A DNA stretch of 64,000 bases. Source: Candidatus Aenigmatarchaeota archaeon (GTDB taxonomy: Archaea > Aenigmatarchaeota > Aenigmatarchaeia > CG10238-14 > SCSR01). A program made the position numbers and the translations under genes. The stretch covers positions 151,424 to 215,423 of the forward strand of contig JACPAE010000002.1 of the NCBI GenBank assembly GCA_016181005.1, read 5' to 3'. This document shows, in pieces, positions 14,508 through 45,112 of this stretch. The notes under the pieces were generated by a model, which worked only from the letters and a program-made list of their open reading frames with translations, ran no database searches and was not told the origin of the DNA. Each line of letters starts with the position of its first letter. Position 1 is the stretch's first letter.

Positions 14508-14866
14508 AGTTTCTGATAACTGGAGATTTTTGCATAAAACTGCAAATAATTGTTTGAAATAAAATAGTTTCCACTATCCACAGGATCAGGCTGTTTATCA
14601 AAGTCCGTCAATCTTAGGCGATTAGTAAGAGCCGGCTGAACACCTCGGTCGAAACCTTGGTGCTTACACCGCTCTCCTATCAAAGCCATCGTCTATGGCA
14701 GCCTTCGTCCAACCACCGGCATTGCTGCCAGCAGTCGGATCGGTTGTCTATTTTTCCGGATGGTTTCCTCCTTAGATGCCTTCAGGAGTTATCCATGTAT
14801 GGCTTAGCTGCCCGGCAATGCTGTTAACAACCGGTACACCAGAGGCCACGGAAGGATGTTCCTTTT

Positions 14867-15492
14867 ACGTGCGTTCACGCCGAAAGAAAATTAACTTTCT
14901 TGTTAAATTTTATTGAATTAGAAGGTTCTATTGTTTTCCAGAATTTTTCGACATTTCTTTTTGTAAAGATTATTAATCGGAATATGTAACTTTTATCATT
15001 TTTGTATGGACCGTAAATTTTTGATTTTATTTCTAGTTTATCTAGAACTTCTTTGACATTCTCAAGGACTTTAGAATCCTTTTGATGCATTATTACTCTA
15101 AAGTCTTGTTTTTTGTTTTTGCTTATATACAATTGACCTTCTGCCTCGAAGAAACCCCTAACGAAAGATATACTACTATCCCCATTTTCGAACTTTACTT
15201 CGTTTAATGGTTGTAATAGTATTTCTAAAGTTTCTTTTGGAATTTCATTTTTTCTAACATAAATCCAAAGCATGTATATTCCGTCACTCGTTTGAATGAT
15301 TTTAGGTTCTTTATTTGTTATCTGCTTGATTACAGGTGCAATAAATCTCCTTAACCAAACGTCATCTTTTTGCCTTACGACAATTCTAATTGTTCCCTTT
15401 CCATCGTATACATGTCCATCTGCTAGAACTCCTTTAAGGTAAGCTATATTGTTCATACCTTACCTATTGTTAATTTTCGACGTAAATACATT
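14867..15492 (-). other. archaeal rRNA intron in the 23S sarcin-ricin loop
   Basis: Exons read AAGTACGA|...|AAGGAACA versus conserved AGTACGAGAGGAAC. Intron ends pair (ACGUCGA/UCGGCGU and AAAUUAA/UUAAUUU). Encodes a LAGLIDADG ORF. Confidence 0.85.
14875..15456 (-). CDS. LAGLIDADG homing endonuclease (intron-encoded)
   Basis: YLKGVLADGHVYDG and FVRGFFEAEGQLYIS are two LAGLIDADG-like motifs. Confidence 0.88.
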   Translation of the reverse strand: MNNIAYLKGVLADGHVYDGKGTIRIVVRQKDDVWLRRFIAPVIKQITNKEPKIIQTSDGIYMLWIYVRKNEIPKETLEILLQPLNEVKFENGDSSISFVRGFFEAEGQLYISKNKKQDFRVIMHQKDSKVLENVKEVLDKLEIKSKIYGPYKNDKSYIFRLIIFTKRNVEKFWKTIEPSNSIKFNKKVNFLSA

Positions 15493-15859
15493 TCGTACTT
15501 AACCTTCCTTCCGGTCAGACACCCAACACCTCCTGTAGATTGCGACCGAACTGTCTCACAACGTTCTGAACCCAGCTAGCGTCCCCCTTTAACTAGTGGA
15601 CACCTATACCCTTGGCTGCTGCTGCACAGCCAGGAGGGGGGGAGCCGACAACGACGCACCAACACGCCAGGTCAATTTACTCGCAATTAGAGTGAGCAAA
15701 CGTCGACCTTGAATGCAGTGAGCTTTCACTGGCTACGAGCCCATTATCCCCGAGGTAGCTTTTCTCATACCACCGGCACCCATTAATGGACACCGATGTA
15801 TCGTTAACCCACGCTTTCGCGTTTGGATTCCCTGCTTTGCGGAATCCAATCAGGCTTCC

Positions 15860-16035
15860 TTTTGCGTTTATACTCTATTCCGGATAACCAGTCAGAGTAA
15901 TTTACCTACATCCGATTTCTGTCGGGTAATGCGAACTGATTAAATTTGCGGCTCATCAGCTACCTCGCTTATCATGAAATCAAAACCGAAGTTTACAATC
16001 ACCGCCGCACAAATGCAGTGCGCATTATGACCCGG
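15860..16035 (-). other. possible insertion/expansion in the 23S helix 79 region
   Basis: About 140 extra nt between TCATCCGGGTCATAA and TTATCCGGAATAGAGTATAAACGCAAAAGGAAGCC relative to typical archaeal 23S. CCGG/AUAA ends pair. Confidence 0.5.
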
Positions 16036-16264
16036 ATGAGGAAACCTTAGGAGGCCCTTGATCCTTTATCAAGGGCGTACCGCCCCAGCCGAACTGCCCA
16101 TCTGATGGTGTCCTCTTACGAGTAAGCAGTACAGTTTTGAAAGGGTAGTGTTACATTTTCCTCTCAGCCTTGCCCAGAAGCAAGGCCTAATGACGAGTCC
16201 TACCTACGCTCTGCAACCAAAACCGTACCGCAGCATCAGACTGCAGTAAAGCTCACCGCTGGGG

Positions 16265-16683
16265 TAAGGAAAATTAAAGATTTATTCTCTTTCTCTCCTT
16301 GTAATATCTCCTAGTCCATGCATATGAGTATCCCCTACAAATACATCTGGATCTTGACCATGCCCACGATAAGAACGTGGAGCTAATGCACCTTTGCTTC
16401 CAAGGTATACCTCATAAATCTGCTGCCCAGTCTCACGTAAATTTTCTGCTATTCTTGGATGTCTTTCACTTTTTGAAGGTGGCGTATTTAACCAAAGAAT
16501 ATAACGCCTTATAACACTTCGCTCTTCTGAGCTAAAGTCATACTTTTTTAGTTCTCTCTTAATGTACCATTCTATAGGGCGATGCATATGCACTTTAGAG
16601 CAATTGGTGTTTAAATATATTTTCTTTTCCTTAACCCCATCTACGGGGTCTACGTCTTGGGTTATCAAAATAGATAAATCTAC
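16265..16683 (-). other. 23S rRNA intron near E. coli 2058-2063
   Basis: Interrupts the segment equivalent to GGGGGAAGCGAAGACCC-TGGAGCTTTACTGCAG. AGAUUUAU/AUAAAUCU terminal pairing. Confidence 0.75.
16282..16668 (-). CDS. intron-encoded ORF of unknown function (128 aa), no LAGLIDADG motif seen
   Basis: Fills the intron almost end to end. Confidence 0.6.
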   Translation of the reverse strand: MITQDVDPVDGVKEKKIYLNTNCSKVHMHRPIEWYIKRELKKYDFSSEERSVIRRYILWLNTPPSKSERHPRIAENLRETGQQIYEVYLGSKGALAPRSYRGHGQDPDVFVGDTHMHGLGDITRRERE

Positions 16684-16812
16684 TTACGATAAATTCCCAC
16701 AGGAGGTCTCAGGCCTATTCACCTGAATAGCAATTTCGCTGGGTACCAGTCCAAGACAGTGGAGAAGTCGTTAAGCCATTCAGACGGGTCGTCAATTAAA
16801 CGACAAGGGAAT

Positions 16813-16980
16813 GCGCTATGAGAAGTTCCTATTCTTGCTAGAACAGAAAAATTCTCTTTCATTCCTTAACGTCTTTCTCCAAAGTTTACAGCCGCTAAAG
16901 TTCGCATACATTTTCCAGTGGTTTCTGACTATCGCACCGTCTATAGCATGTAGCATATTTCAAGAAACTTCCCATATTTA
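16813..16980 (-). other. ORF-less 23S rRNA intron near E. coli 1931-1951
   Basis: Conserved AAGTAGCG|...|ATTCCCTTGTCG (cf. GGTAGCGAAATTCCTTGTCG) is split by about 168 nt. Ends pair imperfectly (ATGGGAAGTTTC with GGAACTTCTCAT). Confidence 0.78.
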
Positions 16981-18098
16981 CGCTACTTTACGACGGTCAG
17001 AGTTACCGCCACCGTTTACCGGGGCTTAGTCCCCTTGGAAGGGGCTTTGACACACCGGCACTGGGTAGGCATCAGAGACTGTACTAACCCTTTCGGGCTT
17101 GCAGTCTCAGGCGTTTTTGTTAAACAGTCGCCTCTCCCTTGCTAGTGACACCTGCAGTTCCCCTTTCGGAAAACCACAGGCACTGCTTCTTGCGAACTTA
17201 CGCAGCTAATTTGCCGAGTTCCTTAGACTGGGTTGTCCCAACACACCTTCGTCTTCTCAACGAGTCTACCTGTGACGGTTCTCGGTACGGGCATGAAGGA
17301 TCCTTCCAAGTTCGATTTTCATGGGCTCAAGGAATCGACAAAACTCTGCATACGCAAAGCTATTCCTGCATTCACCTCCTTCTCCTCATTATAAGACTCC
17401 AGAGGCTTCAACAGTTAACTTACGTTTGCCTATCCCAAAGCGTCTCGAACCTGGCTTGCGTTGCCGCGCGTACCTCCATGGTATCGGAATATTAACCGAT
17501 TTCCCTGTCGCGTGCTTAGATTAGCGGCACACTTAGGACCGACTAACTGCCAGCTGACGAACATGGCTGACAAACCCTTAGACTTCAGGTGGCTAAGATT
17601 CTCACTTAGCTATGTTGCTACTGTCAGCAGGATCTTTATTCCTCCACGGTCCACTCCTGCTCACGCAGAAGCTTCTGCCCATGAAGGACACCCCTCTACC
17701 CTCTTTTGCAAGAGCTTAGGTATCGGTAACTGACTTAGTCCCGTCCATTTTCAGCGCATAAATCCTCGGTAGGTAATCTGTTACGAACTTCTTGGCGGAT
17801 GGCTGATTCTAAGCCTACCGTCCTACTGTCTGAGGATTTACACTGCCTTCTACATTTAGTCAGTATTTAAGGACCTTAACCTAAGTCTGGGTTCTTGCCC
17901 TCTCGGATACCGAGCTTACCCCAGCACCCTAACTCCGGCCTTCTACGGCTGCAGGAGATTCGGAGTTTGGCAGAAAAACTGGACCTTTCGATCCTTGGCT
18001 TTCCAATCAGTAACTCTACCCTCCTGCAAGCCTCCAGCCAGGCTGCACCAAGATGCATTTCGAGGGGAACCAGCTATCACTGGGTTCGTTAGGCTTTT

Positions 18099-18421
18099 GG
18101 TGTTCAGAAAGAAGTTATTTAGGTTGTTTAACTAATTCTCTATCTAGCATAGGATCCCAAAGAGCATGCGCAACTAATCTTCCAGGCATTCCTAGCCAAT
18201 ATCTAAAGTTTCGTTCTGTTGTATCTGCTGCTGTATACGGAAAACCTGGAATATCTCTCCACCTTAACGCGTTACTAGCAATTTGATACGCTCTTATGTT
18301 TTCGTAGACTGCAACTGCCGTTGAGGCTATCGCAGCAACTTTAGCCGTATTTCGCAACAAACTTCTGTAATTCATACCTTTATGTTTTGGTAGAATACTA
18401 TTTAAGCTTCTTTCTAAATTT
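18099..18421 (-). other. 23S rRNA intron near E. coli 800
   Basis: TTAGGGGTG|...|AAAAGCCTAACGAACCCAGTGATAGCTGG versus conserved AGGGGTGAAAGGCCAATC. AGAAAGAAG/CTTCTTTCT perfect terminal complementarity. Confidence 0.8.
18115..18375 (-). CDS. intron-encoded small protein with predicted TM segment (86 aa), unknown function
   Basis: Begins just inside the intron. AKVAAIASTAVAVYENIRAYQIA hydrophobic segment; no LAGLIDADG motif. Confidence 0.55.
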   Translation of the reverse strand: MNYRSLLRNTAKVAAIASTAVAVYENIRAYQIASNALRWRDIPGFPYTAADTTERNFRYWLGMPGRLVAHALWDPMLDRELVKQPK

Positions 18422-19615
18422 CACCCCTAACCCCGGATCACCCGAAGGAATTGCAACTCACAACCGGTAGCAGACTTCCACCTACCTTTCGATAGGCTTC
18501 ATCTTATCCAGGGTTAGATCACCCAGTTTCAGGTCATACCCCAGTAACTTTAGGCGCTTTCACACCATGCCCCACACTGCTTGCGCAGCTACGGGCATAT
18601 CGCTTTCGCTTAGGCTTCCCGGCTTAGCCGGTTAACCTCGCTACTGAGGCATACTCCCTGCTCCGTTTTTCGAAACGGACGGCATGATCCTGTAATCTGT
18701 TCTTCGTACTAGCATGAGCGTTCCTTCAGAACAGAACCTTTCGGACCATGCCTGACTATGGCCATTTGGTTTCAAGCTCTTTTCACCGAGCTTTCGCTCT
18801 ACTTTTCAGCTTTATCTCACGATACTACTTTGCTATCGGACTTCAATAGTGTTTAGGGTTGCCGGTTAATGACCGGCAGATTCCTGCTCCATATCCGAGG
18901 AGCAGTACTTAGGATACTTGGAATCTTCTTTCTCTCCTTCTCTTACGTGACTATCACACTTTGACGTGGGGCTTTCCAGCCCACTTCAGATCAGAAAGTT
19001 AAGAAGTGCCCAAGTCCTGCAACTCCACATCCATCCCTGCTTTCGCAGGGTGTTCGGTTTACCCTGTTCTGCTTTCACTCGCCGTTACTGACAGAATCTC
19101 GATTGATTTCTTTTCCTGCGGCTACTAAGATGCTTCAATTCACCGCGTTCCTCTCCCTTTCGGGATTGCCCTTAACGGGCTGCGAATCGCATTAGGTGAC
19201 TCTGGGGTCGAATCCTCCCTGCGGATAACCCAGAATTTGTGCAGCTTGGCACAACCTTCGTCAGCTATTGAAACCTAGCTATCCACCAAATGGCGTAGCA
19301 TTGACAGACCTTATTGACCAACCTGATCCTATGAATAGTGTCATCTTTACGGCCTCTTTTGACAGTTCGCTCTTCATCCTTTTTTCAGAGAATAAACTCT
19401 AATCACTGGCCTTCACCCTTTCCCCCTTAACAGCAGATAAGGAGGTGCACAAACGTAGATTGCCCCTTGTTAAGTTTTTTTTAGAAGATAACGTAAGAAG
19501 CACGTGTAAGTAAAACACTCCTATGCGCTTATTGAGCTGACATAGTATCGCCGAATCTTGTAAGATTTCTTATGGGATTAGACTTTATATAGTTTTTGAT
19601 TTTAATGGCGTCTGA

Positions 19616-21781: not shown

Positions 21782-21916
21782 ATACCGGATCGAATTGAGC
21801 ATGTTGATTTTGGATGGCTATAATCAATTCACCTCCAACTCATCACAACTCAGAGTCAAGCCTTGTTTTCATACTATAGCCGATTAGGTTTCAATTTCTA
21901 ATCGCTCTTTCGATCT
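21782..21916 (-). other. ORF-less insertion (about 135 nt) in 16S helix 45
   Basis: AAGGTAGCCGTA|AGATCGAAAG...AATTCGATCCGGTATC|GGGAACGTGCGGCTGGATCA. GAUCGAA/UUCGAUC terminal pairing. Confidence 0.75.
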
Positions 21917-22020
21917 TACGGCTACCTTGTGGCGACTTAGCCCCTCTCGCGAACCCTCAACTCGACCTACCCTTGCGGGCGGGCCTCGATGAGAACTCAC
22001 TCGATTGGCTTGACGGGCGG

Positions 22021-22058
22021 TTTACACTTGACTAGTAGAATTTCTTCCCTATATCAAT
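22021..22058 (-). other. micro-insertion (about 37 nt) near 16S position 1391
   Basis: CTTGCACAC|ATTGATATAGGGAAGAAATTCTACTAGTCAAGTGTAA|ACCGCCCGTCAAG. UUGAU/GUCAA terminal pairing. Confidence 0.85.
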
Positions 22059-22424
22059 GTGTGCAAGGAGCAGGGACCTATTCGGCGAACGAATTCACGA
22101 CAGAAAGATGGTTCTTCAGGTGTCCAACCCTCAAAATCATCAGCACCTTCCTATCTTGGTGACGTTCGCCTACTAGCGATTCCGGCTTCATGCGGATGAG
22201 TTACAATCCGCAATTCGAACTGAGCATGCTTTTAGGGGATTTGCTTCTCCTTTCGGAGTTGCATCCCATTGTGGCATGCATTGTAGGTCGCGTGTAGCCC
22301 AGGAGGTCCGCGCCATACAGACCTACCGTCGCCCATTCCTTCCTCTGGTTTATCACCAGCGGTCTCGTATAAGTGCTTGCTTTCCGGAGAAAGCAGTGGC
22401 AACATACGATATGGGTCTCGCTCG

Positions 22425-22503
22425 GTAGTTATGAGGAAATTGAGTTTACAACTTACCCCATTTTAACCGACTTAACGGCACGTCTTTACCGCTGTGCATA
22501 TCG
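22425..22503 (-). other. insertion (about 79 nt) near 16S position 1092-1097
   Basis: GTTATGTCATGATG|CGATATGC...ATAACTAC|CGAGCGAGACCC versus conserved GTTAAGTCAGGCAACGAGCGAGACCC. Confidence 0.75.
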
Positions 22504-22534
22504 CATCATGACATAACACAGTCACGATACGAGC

Positions 22535-23365
22535 TTTATCGTTCGATCAATTCCCTAAGTAAAAATACTTTTTGTTGTTTTTTCTCATCTTTGAGAAATA
22601 ACTTGCTAAGAATTTTAACAGCAGAATTAAATGATATTTTAAGATCGTATGCATTTCTGTTCTTATAAGTTGATATCCATCCGCTAATGTTGAATTTCTT
22701 CAATAATGAAAAATCTTTTCTTGCTTCTTCAAGACTACCGTAGGTTATTTTTATTGGACTTGTCCTATATTTAACTGCGTACAACATTAATGTTCCATCG
22801 GCATCTATACGACCAGAAAGATACGCAAGTAACTCATTTTCTCTTTGAATTAAGGTTTCTCGATCCTGTTCTAAATTTTCTAGAATTCTTCGAATTAAAC
22901 CTGAATTTATTTTAACTCTTGATGCATCACCATTGTTAATGGAAACTTTCTTCAACATCTTTCTTTCTTTTACGATTCGCTCAAGGAACTTCATAAATTC
23001 ATCCAACAGTTTTTCATTTGTGTTTGTGATGCCAACTGAATTTCCAAACCAATATTTATCACCACACCAAAGCCCAAGGTTATAGAAGAATTTTTCATCA
23101 ATTTGTAAGAATCTTGTCACATTAACCGAATTTTCGAACTGATTCCTAACATTTGATTTTAGTGAATTTTTCTCAACTGAGACGTACTTATTAATGTACT
23201 CCTTCGGTAATACTAGTTTTAAATCCAATTTTTGGACTGTGCTTTCGATTTCCATTTTCACTCACTTGTTAACTGAAATAATGTGAAGCTGGGTATATCT
23301 GGTTTTAGTCTTGTGATATGAAATAGAAATCAAGATATACCCAACTATTTAGAAACTGAGTCGAA
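22535..23365 (-). other. 16S rRNA intron in the 1060s (near known site 1068)
   Basis: GCATGGCCATCGTCA|...|AGCTCGTATCGTGAC; encodes a LAGLIDADG ORF. Confidence 0.9.
22536..23261 (-). CDS. LAGLIDADG homing endonuclease (16S intron-encoded)
   Basis: LLAYLSGRIDADGTLML motif plus an upstream degenerate FFYNLGLWCGDKYW motif. Confidence 0.9.
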   Translation of the reverse strand: MKMEIESTVQKLDLKLVLPKEYINKYVSVEKNSLKSNVRNQFENSVNVTRFLQIDEKFFYNLGLWCGDKYWFGNSVGITNTNEKLLDEFMKFLERIVKERKMLKKVSINNGDASRVKINSGLIRRILENLEQDRETLIQRENELLAYLSGRIDADGTLMLYAVKYRTSPIKITYGSLEEARKDFSLLKKFNISGWISTYKNRNAYDLKISFNSAVKILSKLFLKDEKKQQKVFLLRELIER

Positions 23366-23502
23366 TGACGATGGCCATGCAGCAGCTCTCGGCTTGTTAG
23401 GTAAGACCTTCAGCCTGACCTTCATCCTGCCGTCGCCCCTGGTGAGATGCCCGGCGTTGAATCCAATTGAACCGCAACCTCCACCGCTTGTGTGCTCCCC
23501 CG

Positions 23503-23534
23503 CTTGAACTAGAGCCAGAACTAACTGAACCCTA
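23503..23534 (-). other. micro-insertion (32 nt) near 16S position 920-924
   Basis: CTTAAGGGAATTGA|TAGGGTTCAGTTAGTTCTGGCTCTAGTTCAAG|CGGGGGAGCAC. Confidence 0.88.
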
Positions 23535-23548
23535 TCAATTCCCTTAAG

Positions 23549-23588
23549 TAAAGTGTGGGTAACACACGATACCAATCCTGCTAACCCA
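23549..23588 (-). other. micro-insertion (40 nt) near 16S position 908
   Basis: GGGTGAAA|TGGGTTAGCAGGATTGGTATCGTGTGTTACCCACACTTTA|CTTAAGGGAATTGA. Confidence 0.88.
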
Positions 23589-23974
23589 TTTCACCCTTGC
23601 GAGTATACTCCCCAGGTGGCCCACTTAACACCTACGCTCCGGCACCGCAATCTCCCAAGAAGATTGCAGCACCAAGTGGGCATCGTTTACTGCTAGGACT
23701 AACGGGGTATCTAATCCCGGTCGCTCCCCTAGCCTTCGTCCCTCACCGTCAGACAAGTTCCAGACAGACGCCTTCGCCACCGGTGGTCCCTCTAGGATTA
23801 ACGGATTTAACCCCTACCCTAGAAGTACCTCTGTCCTCTCCCTCTCTCAAGCCTGCCAGTATTCCCCGCAAGCCTGACAGTTTACTGCCAGATTTCACAG
23901 GGAACTTAACAAGCCGGCTACGGACGCTTTAGACCCAATAATAGTGACCATCACTTGAGCCTCGGGTATTACCG

Positions 23975-24002
23975 TGTACCGTGCTACCTTTGCGTATAGC
24001 AT
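23975..24002 (-). other. micro-insertion (about 27 nt) in the 16S 530 loop
   Basis: GTGCCAGCCGCC|ATGCTATACGCAAAGGTAGCACGGTACA|CGGTAATACC; UGCUA/UAGCA hairpin inside. Confidence 0.88.
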
Positions 24003-24636
24003 GGCGGCTGGCACCCGTATTGCCCGGCCCTTATTCTCCGTCCTGTTTTCAGACGGCAAAAGTTTCTGCAATGCAGAAACACTCCAAGTCCCCTTTTCGC
24101 CCGTTAAGGCATTGAAAAGTTTTCTCTCCTGCTGCGTTCCGTAGAACCTGGATTCATGTCTCAGAATCCATCTTAGGGCTCCTACTTCCATAGCCCTCAC
24201 TCGTTATAGGTTTGATAGTTCGTTACACTATCAACAGCCTGATGAGCCGCAGTCCCATCCTTAGCCGCAAAAGCTTTCGTTCTAGCCACATTCCAGTAAG
24301 CTAGAACTATGGCGTATTAGCCGCACTTTCGCACGTTTATTCGCCCGCTAAGGGCAGGTTGACTACGTGTTATGAAGCAATTCAGGTCGGGTCTTACCCG
24401 ATCCCTTCGCATGGATTAGTAGAACTCGGATAGCAATGGTCTCTGGCGGGATCAGCCAGAATTGGCGGTCTAACCCTCTAAGGTTTCATCATAATTGACC
24501 TTACCTGCAACGCTACTGCAGAATAGCTGTTGAACCACGAACTAGAATTAACTTTTTCATTCATTGTCAGTCGACGTAGTCAAAGTTAAACGCCTTTAGC
24601 TCGTGAGACTAAACAGATTATATGACAAGGAGGTAT

Positions 24637-43498: not shown

Positions 43499-43927
43499 TT
43501 AACGCTTACTGCGTTGTTTGTGCCTACGAGAACCACGTTTGCTTGCTCCTCTTCCGCTCGAATGGTGTGGCTCGTTCCTTCTTGGATCGTAAACAAGCAA
43601 GTTCCTGTCATAATGAAGATATTTTTCCCGCAGACCTTTGCTTCGGGAATAATCAACCAGACCTTTTGCGATAGCCATTCTTACGGCTTCCGCCTGGCCG
43701 ACAATACCGCCGCTCTTTACATTAACATCGATGTCGACATCCTTTGACACGCTGTCCGCCAGTACAAGCGGCTCCTTTATCCACAGCCTCAGGACCTCGT
43801 TCCCCCATAGGCTCAAAGGCTTTGAATTAATTCTGACTATGCCTTTGCCCGATTTTACCACGGCTCTTGCAACCGCAAGTCTTCTTTTGCCGATGCTTTG
43901 GGCGGATTTCTCCTTCTTTGCTACCAT
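43499..43927 (-). CDS. rps9: ribosomal protein S9 (uS9)
   Basis: GKRRLAVARAVVKSGKG...YDPRRNEPHHSSGRGASKRGSRRHKQRSKR. Confidence 0.96.
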   Translation of the reverse strand: MVAKKEKSAQSIGKRRLAVARAVVKSGKGIVRINSKPLSLWGNEVLRLWIKEPLVLADSVSKDVDIDVNVKSGGIVGQAEAVRMAIAKGLVDYSRSKGLREKYLHYDRNLLVYDPRRNEPHHSSGRGASKRGSRRHKQRSKR

Positions 43928-44343
43928 CTTTTCTTAGCACCTATGTTGGTTGACAAATCGCCAAGAGTTATATAAGTTGTCCTCAGTTTGCTCGCGTCCG
44001 CTGCCTGTATCTTCTCCCTGGGATTTTCCTTAAATTCTTCAGGCACGCTTATATAAACTTTCAGATTCTTGAACGCGTTCCTTCCCCTTGCCTGATGCCA
44101 CGGCAACATCCCTCGCACAACCCTCCTGAAAATCTCGTTCGGATATTTTGGAAAGAAAGGACCGTGGAACGGATCTCCTCTCTTTACCCTTTCATCATAA
44201 TGACTGATCTTCTGCTTCGGCCTTCCGGACATGACAGCCTTTTCCGCATTCACGACTATCACTTGCTCGCCCTTCAGCAGCTCCTTGGCTATCCTTGACG
44301 ACATCCTTCCAACTATCTGGTTTTCCGCATCGTAGACTTTCAT
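43921..44343 (-). CDS. rpl13: ribosomal protein L13 (uL13)
   Basis: DAENQIVGRMSSRIAKELLKGEQVIVVNAEKAVMSG...FRRVVRGMLPWHQARGRNAFKNLKVY. Confidence 0.96.
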   Translation of the reverse strand: MKVYDAENQIVGRMSSRIAKELLKGEQVIVVNAEKAVMSGRPKQKISHYDERVKRGDPFHGPFFPKYPNEIFRRVVRGMLPWHQARGRNAFKNLKVYISVPEEFKENPREKIQAADASKLRTTYITLGDLSTNIGAKKRW

Positions 44344-44347
44344 AATA

Positions 44348-44713
44348 TCACGAAATAATCTTCACATTAGAGCCCTTTGGATTCTTTTCCGCCAAGCTGT
44401 TTATCGTCATGCACTCCCCGCCGTTCTTGCTTATCTTTTCCTTGGCCGCCGAGGAAAACTTCCATGCGGCCACGTTCACCTTTTTGGACAGATTGCCAGC
44501 TGACAGTACGACCCCTGGAACAAGTATCGTGTCGCCGTTGCTCACGTGCAAGTCTATGTCCCTAACGTTCACTTGTATCCTTTTTCTTGTGGGCTTGTCC
44601 AAAGCTTCGGCAACATCTCTCCAGATTGGAGCCTTGTTCTCCAATGATTTTTTCTTCAGAGTTTGGATTAATTGCTTTAGATAAGGGTTGGTAGGACCTG
44701 TTCTTTTGGCCAT
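44348..44713 (-). CDS. rpl18e: ribosomal protein L18e
   Basis: AKRTGPTNPYLKQLIQTLKKKS...APIWRDVAEALDKPTRKR; operon context. Confidence 0.94.
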   Translation of the reverse strand: MAKRTGPTNPYLKQLIQTLKKKSLENKAPIWRDVAEALDKPTRKRIQVNVRDIDLHVSNGDTILVPGVVLSAGNLSKKVNVAAWKFSSAAKEKISKNGGECMTINSLAEKNPKGSNVKIIS

Positions 44714-45010: not shown

Positions 45011-45112
45011 TGCGCCAAGCGGGATTTGAACCCGCATACCAAGCTAATTCCTAGATTTGGGAAGCCTCTACCCATTTTGGTTTGTATCTTAACCAGGTTG
45101 GATCATTGGCGC
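45011..45112 (-). tRNA. tRNA-Gly (CCC), apparently with two introns
   Basis: GCGCCAA/TTGGCGC acceptor, GCGGGTTCAAATCCCGC T-arm, TTCCCA[AATCTAGGAATT]A anticodon loop, and about 16 nt extra (AAACCAAAATGGGTAG) at the 27/28 junction. Confidence 0.7.

Follow-up and report, generated by a model that had tools for sequence, protein, structure and literature searches.

A tRNA-Gly(CCC) gene with two probable BHB introns in a Candidatus Aenigmatarchaeota genome

The tRNA-Gly(CCC) locus and its canonical intron

The window analysed here, a stretch of 64,000 nucleotides, belongs to a Candidatus Aenigmatarchaeota MAG of 0.74 Mb that is 92% complete (G000, the target genome). Its minus strand carries a tRNA-Gly(CCC) gene, 74 nt long after removal of two introns, with the eL18-uL13-uS9 ribosomal protein operon downstream (Table 1); the uS9 protein is 71-77% identical to those of Candidatus Aenigmatarchaeota groundwater MAGs. 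An Rfam search found archaeal rRNAs in the same window. The SSU gene measures about 2.6 kb against a model of 1.5 kb and the LSU gene about 4.7 kb against a model of 3.0 kb, so that both hold large insertions, probably introns.

Table 1. Features of the tRNA-Gly(CCC) gene and other genes mentioned in the text (window positions unless a locus is named)
Feature	Position	Strand	Sequence or basis
tRNA-Gly(CCC) gene	45112-45011	-	Rfam tRNA match with exactly these ends
Exon 1, positions 1-29	45082..45112	-	GCGCCAATGATCCAACCTGGTTAAGATACAA; D-arm string ATCCAACCTGGTTAAGATAC identical in G004 ortholog
Non-canonical intron 29/30, 16 nt	45066..45081	-	ACCAAAATGGGTAGAG; best of all placements
Exon 2, positions 30-37	45058..45065	-	GCTTCCCA
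Anticodon CCC, positions 34-36	45059..45061	-	ARAGORN, spliced sequence
Canonical intron 37/38, 12 nt	45046..45057	-	AATCTAGGAATT
Exon 3, positions 38-73, CCA not encoded	45011..45045	-	sequence
eL18-uL13-uS9 ribosomal protein operon	43499..44713	-	ORFs named by reading
SSU rRNA gene	21888-24462
LSU rRNA gene	14602-19310
Met CAU tRNA, with guide-like intron (further examples of such introns L029, L010, L013)	25207-25085
tRNA-Gly(GCC) of target genome (L028)	G000:C5:20420-20523
EndA gene	L237:1474-2040	-
rtcB of target genome (L257)	G000:C2:74457-75833	-
rtcB of G004 (L262)	G004:C4
rtcB of G002 (L261/L263)	G002:C2:140925-143642

At 38.3 bits the Rfam match exceeds the gathering score of 29, and a Gly model scores the gene at 63.7 bits, a value that is not independent because the model was built here with the target gene included. 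ARAGORN missed the gene, both unspliced and with the 37/38 intron alone taken out, and called tRNA-Gly(CCC) once both introns were removed. With both removed, our placement script and ARAGORN find a canonical cloverleaf that carries the right anticodon, so that the two introns and the CCC anticodon read in an earlier note on this DNA are borne out. A folding with one intron, which would have spoken against that note, was also considered and rejected: to ARAGORN's silence after removal of the 37/38 intron is added a placement search that gave no competitive one-intron parse.

The 37/38 intron, whose sequence is as the earlier note wrote it, forms a perfect, strict BHB, with a central helix TTCC/GGAA of four pairs out of four and bulges CA^A and TT^A. 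Four central pairs arise with a frequency of 0.004 among shuffled introns at this fixed position. In site, length class and strict BHB this intron is like the canonical 37/38 BHB introns of Archaea, with no difference from them; the known length range of that class is 11-129 nt.

Placement of the upstream intron

We enumerated all placements exhaustively with a purpose-written script that scores cloverleaf and BHB. On this unbenchmarked scorer the combination 29/30 plus 37/38 came first (27.8), the runner-up was a D-loop solution (26.15), and 27/28 fell outside the four best. The exon junctions at 29/30 read GATACAA^ACCAAAATGGGTAGAG^GC. The resulting BHB is of the relaxed form: the central helix ATAC/GTAG has three of four pairs (A24.G mismatch), the bulges are AA^A and AG^G, and the outer (AAG/CUU) and inner (CCA/UGG) helices have 3 bp each. 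H of at least 3 together with an inner helix of at least 3 occurs at 29/30 in 0.0003 of shuffled introns, a frequency that, like the one given for 37/38, holds for fixed positions and is uncorrected for the many placements searched. Splicing at 29/30 yields an all-Watson-Crick anticodon stem, CAAGC/GCTTG, which is also the stem of the target genome's own Gly(UCC), and keeps A29. With the target spliced in this way, position 29 is A in 14/14 Gly tRNAs aligned from the five congeneric genomes (G000-G004, that is, the target and four others) and related genera; the invariance is confined to this set, since some Gly(UCC) tRNAs of the wider order have G29.

The earlier note had put the upstream intron at 27/28 (28/29 gives the same product), with the stem CAGGC/GCTTG, next to the 37/38 intron. 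It observed that removing both leaves a regular cloverleaf with C27-G43, which is true but equally so for 29/30, and hence not diagnostic. Cloverleaf energies do not discriminate either, being nearly equal at -24.5 kcal/mol for 29/30 and -24.2 kcal/mol for 27/28, a difference of 0.3. Other tRNAs of the genus do have 27/28 introns with a 4/4 BHB (C14 of G001, C4 of G002), but in the target gene this placement has just two of four central pairs and no outer helix, and it would replace A29 by G, giving G29.U41 where the other 13 aligned Gly tRNAs have A29. We favour 29/30 because of the BHB motif, the conserved A29-U41 pair and the occurrence of introns at 29/30 in further Gly tRNAs of the genus; the earlier site, two nucleotides away, is therefore unlikely to be the right one. 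The expected mature segment is GATACAAGCTTCCCAAGCTTG under 29/30 splicing and GATACAGGCTTCCC under 27/28 splicing.

Even less probable is an upstream intron within the D loop, either of 14 nt (AGATACAAACCAAA) or in a variant of 16 nt. Such an intron would have all four central pairs (TGGT/ACCA) and a parallel in the 20/21 introns of the G003 and G013 orthologs, but with it removed G27 and G43 are mismatched, the D loop has 12 nt and lacks A21, and the GATAC string is broken. The ortholog of G004 (ATCCAACCTGGTTAAGATACGAGC), picked like the others by synteny with the eL18-uL13-uS9 operon, is telling here. It has a 37/38 intron only, none at 29/30, and the stem CGAGC, and its intron-free D arm equals that of the target in every letter. 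The target exon must then include the whole of GATAC, which eliminates the D-loop placements. One could also ask whether the gene is spliced at all or is a decayed pseudogene, as its being missed by ARAGORN and a C13.A22 mismatch in the mature tRNA might suggest. We consider this the most improbable reading of all, since the same mismatch is found in the G004 ortholog, the acceptor and T arms are intact, the 37/38 BHB is perfect, and no second Gly(CCC) gene was found in the 92%-complete genome.

Our main reading, in which we are confident, is a functional single-copy tRNA-Gly(CCC) gene with two BHB introns, of 16 nt at 29/30 and 12 nt at 37/38. Sequence, pairings and homologs are observed, and the excision of the introns is predicted.

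Introns in related genomes and in other tRNAs

The syntenic Gly(CCC) genes of G001, G002, G008 and G012 have no introns, and the 37/38 intron is shared with G004, G015 and other orthologs. Across related genomes, Gly(CCC) is either intron-free or has one intron, at 37/38, 20/21, 59/60 or some other place within the D loop, a variety of sites that points to rapid gain and loss. The 29/30 intron was found within Gly(CCC) in the target genome alone among the genomes compared, which suggests that it was probably gained recently in the target species. The same script placed 29/30 introns in two Gly(GCC) tRNAs, those of G000 and of G002 (in G002 with a 4/4 central helix and an outer helix of 3), and in the Gly(UCC) of G001 and G002. 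Other tRNAs received introns at 30/31, 20/21, 22/23 and 45/46. For Leu and Ser tRNAs it also gave sites at 44/45 and 47-50, which are artefacts of long variable arms. The tRNA-Gly(GCC) of the target genome has itself two introns, one at 29/30 and one in the variable loop at 45/46.

It had been proposed that the CAU tRNA of the window is interrupted at the same junction as the Gly(CCC) tRNA, hinting at a shared invasion or origin of introns at 27/28. The extra 15 nt of the CAU tRNA fit best at 23/24 (central helix 3/4, outer helix 4), and at the proposed junction the central pairs are only 1-2 of 4. The 23/24 parse is ahead of the next by just 1.0 score unit, and this site is itself tentative. 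The best sites in the two tRNAs are thus different, 23/24 and 29/30, and the similarity between the two introns lies below the shuffled mean (z = -1.1). With neither a common site nor related sequences, a Gly/CAU intron family and a common origin find no support. When compared with every other intron, the target 29/30 intron reaches at most z = 2.6. Some likeness exists elsewhere, in that the G002 Gly(GCC) intron resembles those of G001 C22 and G004 Ile (29/30 and 30/31 introns) with z of about 4-4.5, part of which may reflect common BHB constraints. We rejected general intron transposition as an explanation, given this confounding and the low values of the target intron.

Some long 37/38 introns of the genus have a further feature. 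In 15 tRNA genes of the five genomes (Trp, Met, Leu(CAA), Gln(UUG) and Lys(UUU)), the intron contains a box D'-like CTGA/TTGA with a box C'-like GATGA a short way after it, and a guide segment complementary to the anticodon loop of its own gene. In 12 of the 15, by the script's best match, the base five upstream of box D' (N+5) falls on position 34 of the tRNA that carries the intron; the Leu of G000 becomes a thirteenth case if its box D' is reassigned by eye. In published work the guides for Leu(CAA), Leu(UAA) and Met act in trans, and Trp alone has an intronic one (PMC7994747). By their sequences, these introns look like self-targeting guides for methylation of the wobble base, beyond the known case of Trp.

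Splicing, its enzymes and the place of the gene among archaeal introns

Genes for EndA and RtcB are both present in the target genome. In the pathway we envisage, EndA would cut each bulge between nucleotides 2 and 3, and the exons would then be sealed by RtcB. C31-U33 is needed by both BHBs, in the outer helix of the 29/30 motif and in the outer and central helices of the 37/38 motif, so that they cannot form together and splicing should be stepwise. The 37/38 intron would probably leave first, with the 29/30 BHB then still intact. As long as the 29/30 intron is in place, its last two bases, AG, may replace A28-A29 and pair with U41-U42, bringing the 37/38 outer helix to four pairs, which would allow this early release of the 37/38 intron. 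This mimicry could also be the reason why the 27/28 placement looks regular by eye.

Cleavage of relaxed BHBs has been linked to (alpha-beta)2 or epsilon2 endonucleases (PMC6379350). For the 29/30 placement with its relaxed 3/4 BHB this is a point against, as one EndA gene was found and it is of the alpha type (188 aa, best PDB matches with the Methanopyrus and Methanocaldococcus enzymes). PF01974 has one match in the target and one in each of ten relatives of the same genus or family with any match; in the 73%-complete genome of G004 the search gave none. The target genome may also encode a diverged beta subunit. In the EndA protein the catalytic-His motif HEH is directly preceded by a basic insert, RGVKLKRGPK. 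Most of the family members read share this insert, and the M. jannaschii enzyme lacks it. It is not the ARMAN-specific loop, as the published loop lies elsewhere in the protein, at Y160/K161. A more speculative scenario is that short BHB introns move among neighbouring anticodon-stem sites of different Aenigmatarchaeota tRNAs (29/30 in Gly and others, 30/31 in Ile). Their processing would fall to a homomeric alpha-type EndA in which the conserved basic insert lies next to the catalytic residues. We regard it as possible but rather doubtful; if true, it would be an exception to the published rule by which (alpha-beta)2 or epsilon2 enzymes are required for relaxed or non-canonical introns.

The rtcB gene of the target genome is interrupted as well. 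Its two inserts, one of 32 and one of 31 nt, contain stop codons, and their removal gives a protein like the intact ones of G001 and G003. The 31-nt insert forms a perfect BHB (central helix 4/4, outer helix 4, inner helix 9). The 32-nt insert is found in G004 at the same site, after PDGH, and with the same length, with compensating changes in the hairpin stem. From these motifs, the enzyme that seals BHB exons seems to depend on BHB splicing of its own mRNA. A literature search found no earlier account of BHB introns inside rtcB. In the sister genome G002, rtcB has a long in-frame insert within one frame of 960 aa, which starts after a Cys, ends in HNFVADNFVTGNC and is by appearance an intein.

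The introns of the target gene are of the usual archaeal kind, and the 29/30 site is already known elsewhere. Published non-canonical sites in archaeal tRNAs include 29/30, 20/21, 22/23, 25/26, 30/31 and 45/46, and canonical and non-canonical introns are known to occur together in one gene (PMC4090602). Like the 29/30 introns of Thermoproteales and other groups (PMC4090602), the present one is short (16 nt), is BHB-like in form and shares its gene with a canonical intron; it differs in its host phylum, the Aenigmatarchaeota (DPANN), in its 3/4 central helix and in the single alpha-type EndA gene. Closely spaced introns of which the second forms its BHB only after removal of the first were described with tRNAscan-SE 2.0 (PMC8450103). 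The target gene is similar in the closeness of its introns and in the predicted stepwise formation of the BHBs, and would differ in that the end of one intron mimics an exon to complete the stem of its neighbour.

A literature search, with most subscription journals outside it, found no published survey or other paper on the tRNA introns of Aenigmatarchaeota. The gene is one well-supported case of a tRNA with two introns from a DPANN phylum that has been little described. It also illustrates that automatic tools miss such genes, ARAGORN having found nothing, and that reading by eye misplaces splice sites. The BHB introns of rtcB and the guide-like tRNA introns look more interesting than the target gene itself. 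Finally, the five congeneric genomes are rich in tRNA introns, which sit at many positions, and have a single alpha-type EndA gene wherever one was detected, which makes them a good set in which to study the co-evolution of intron position and endonuclease type.
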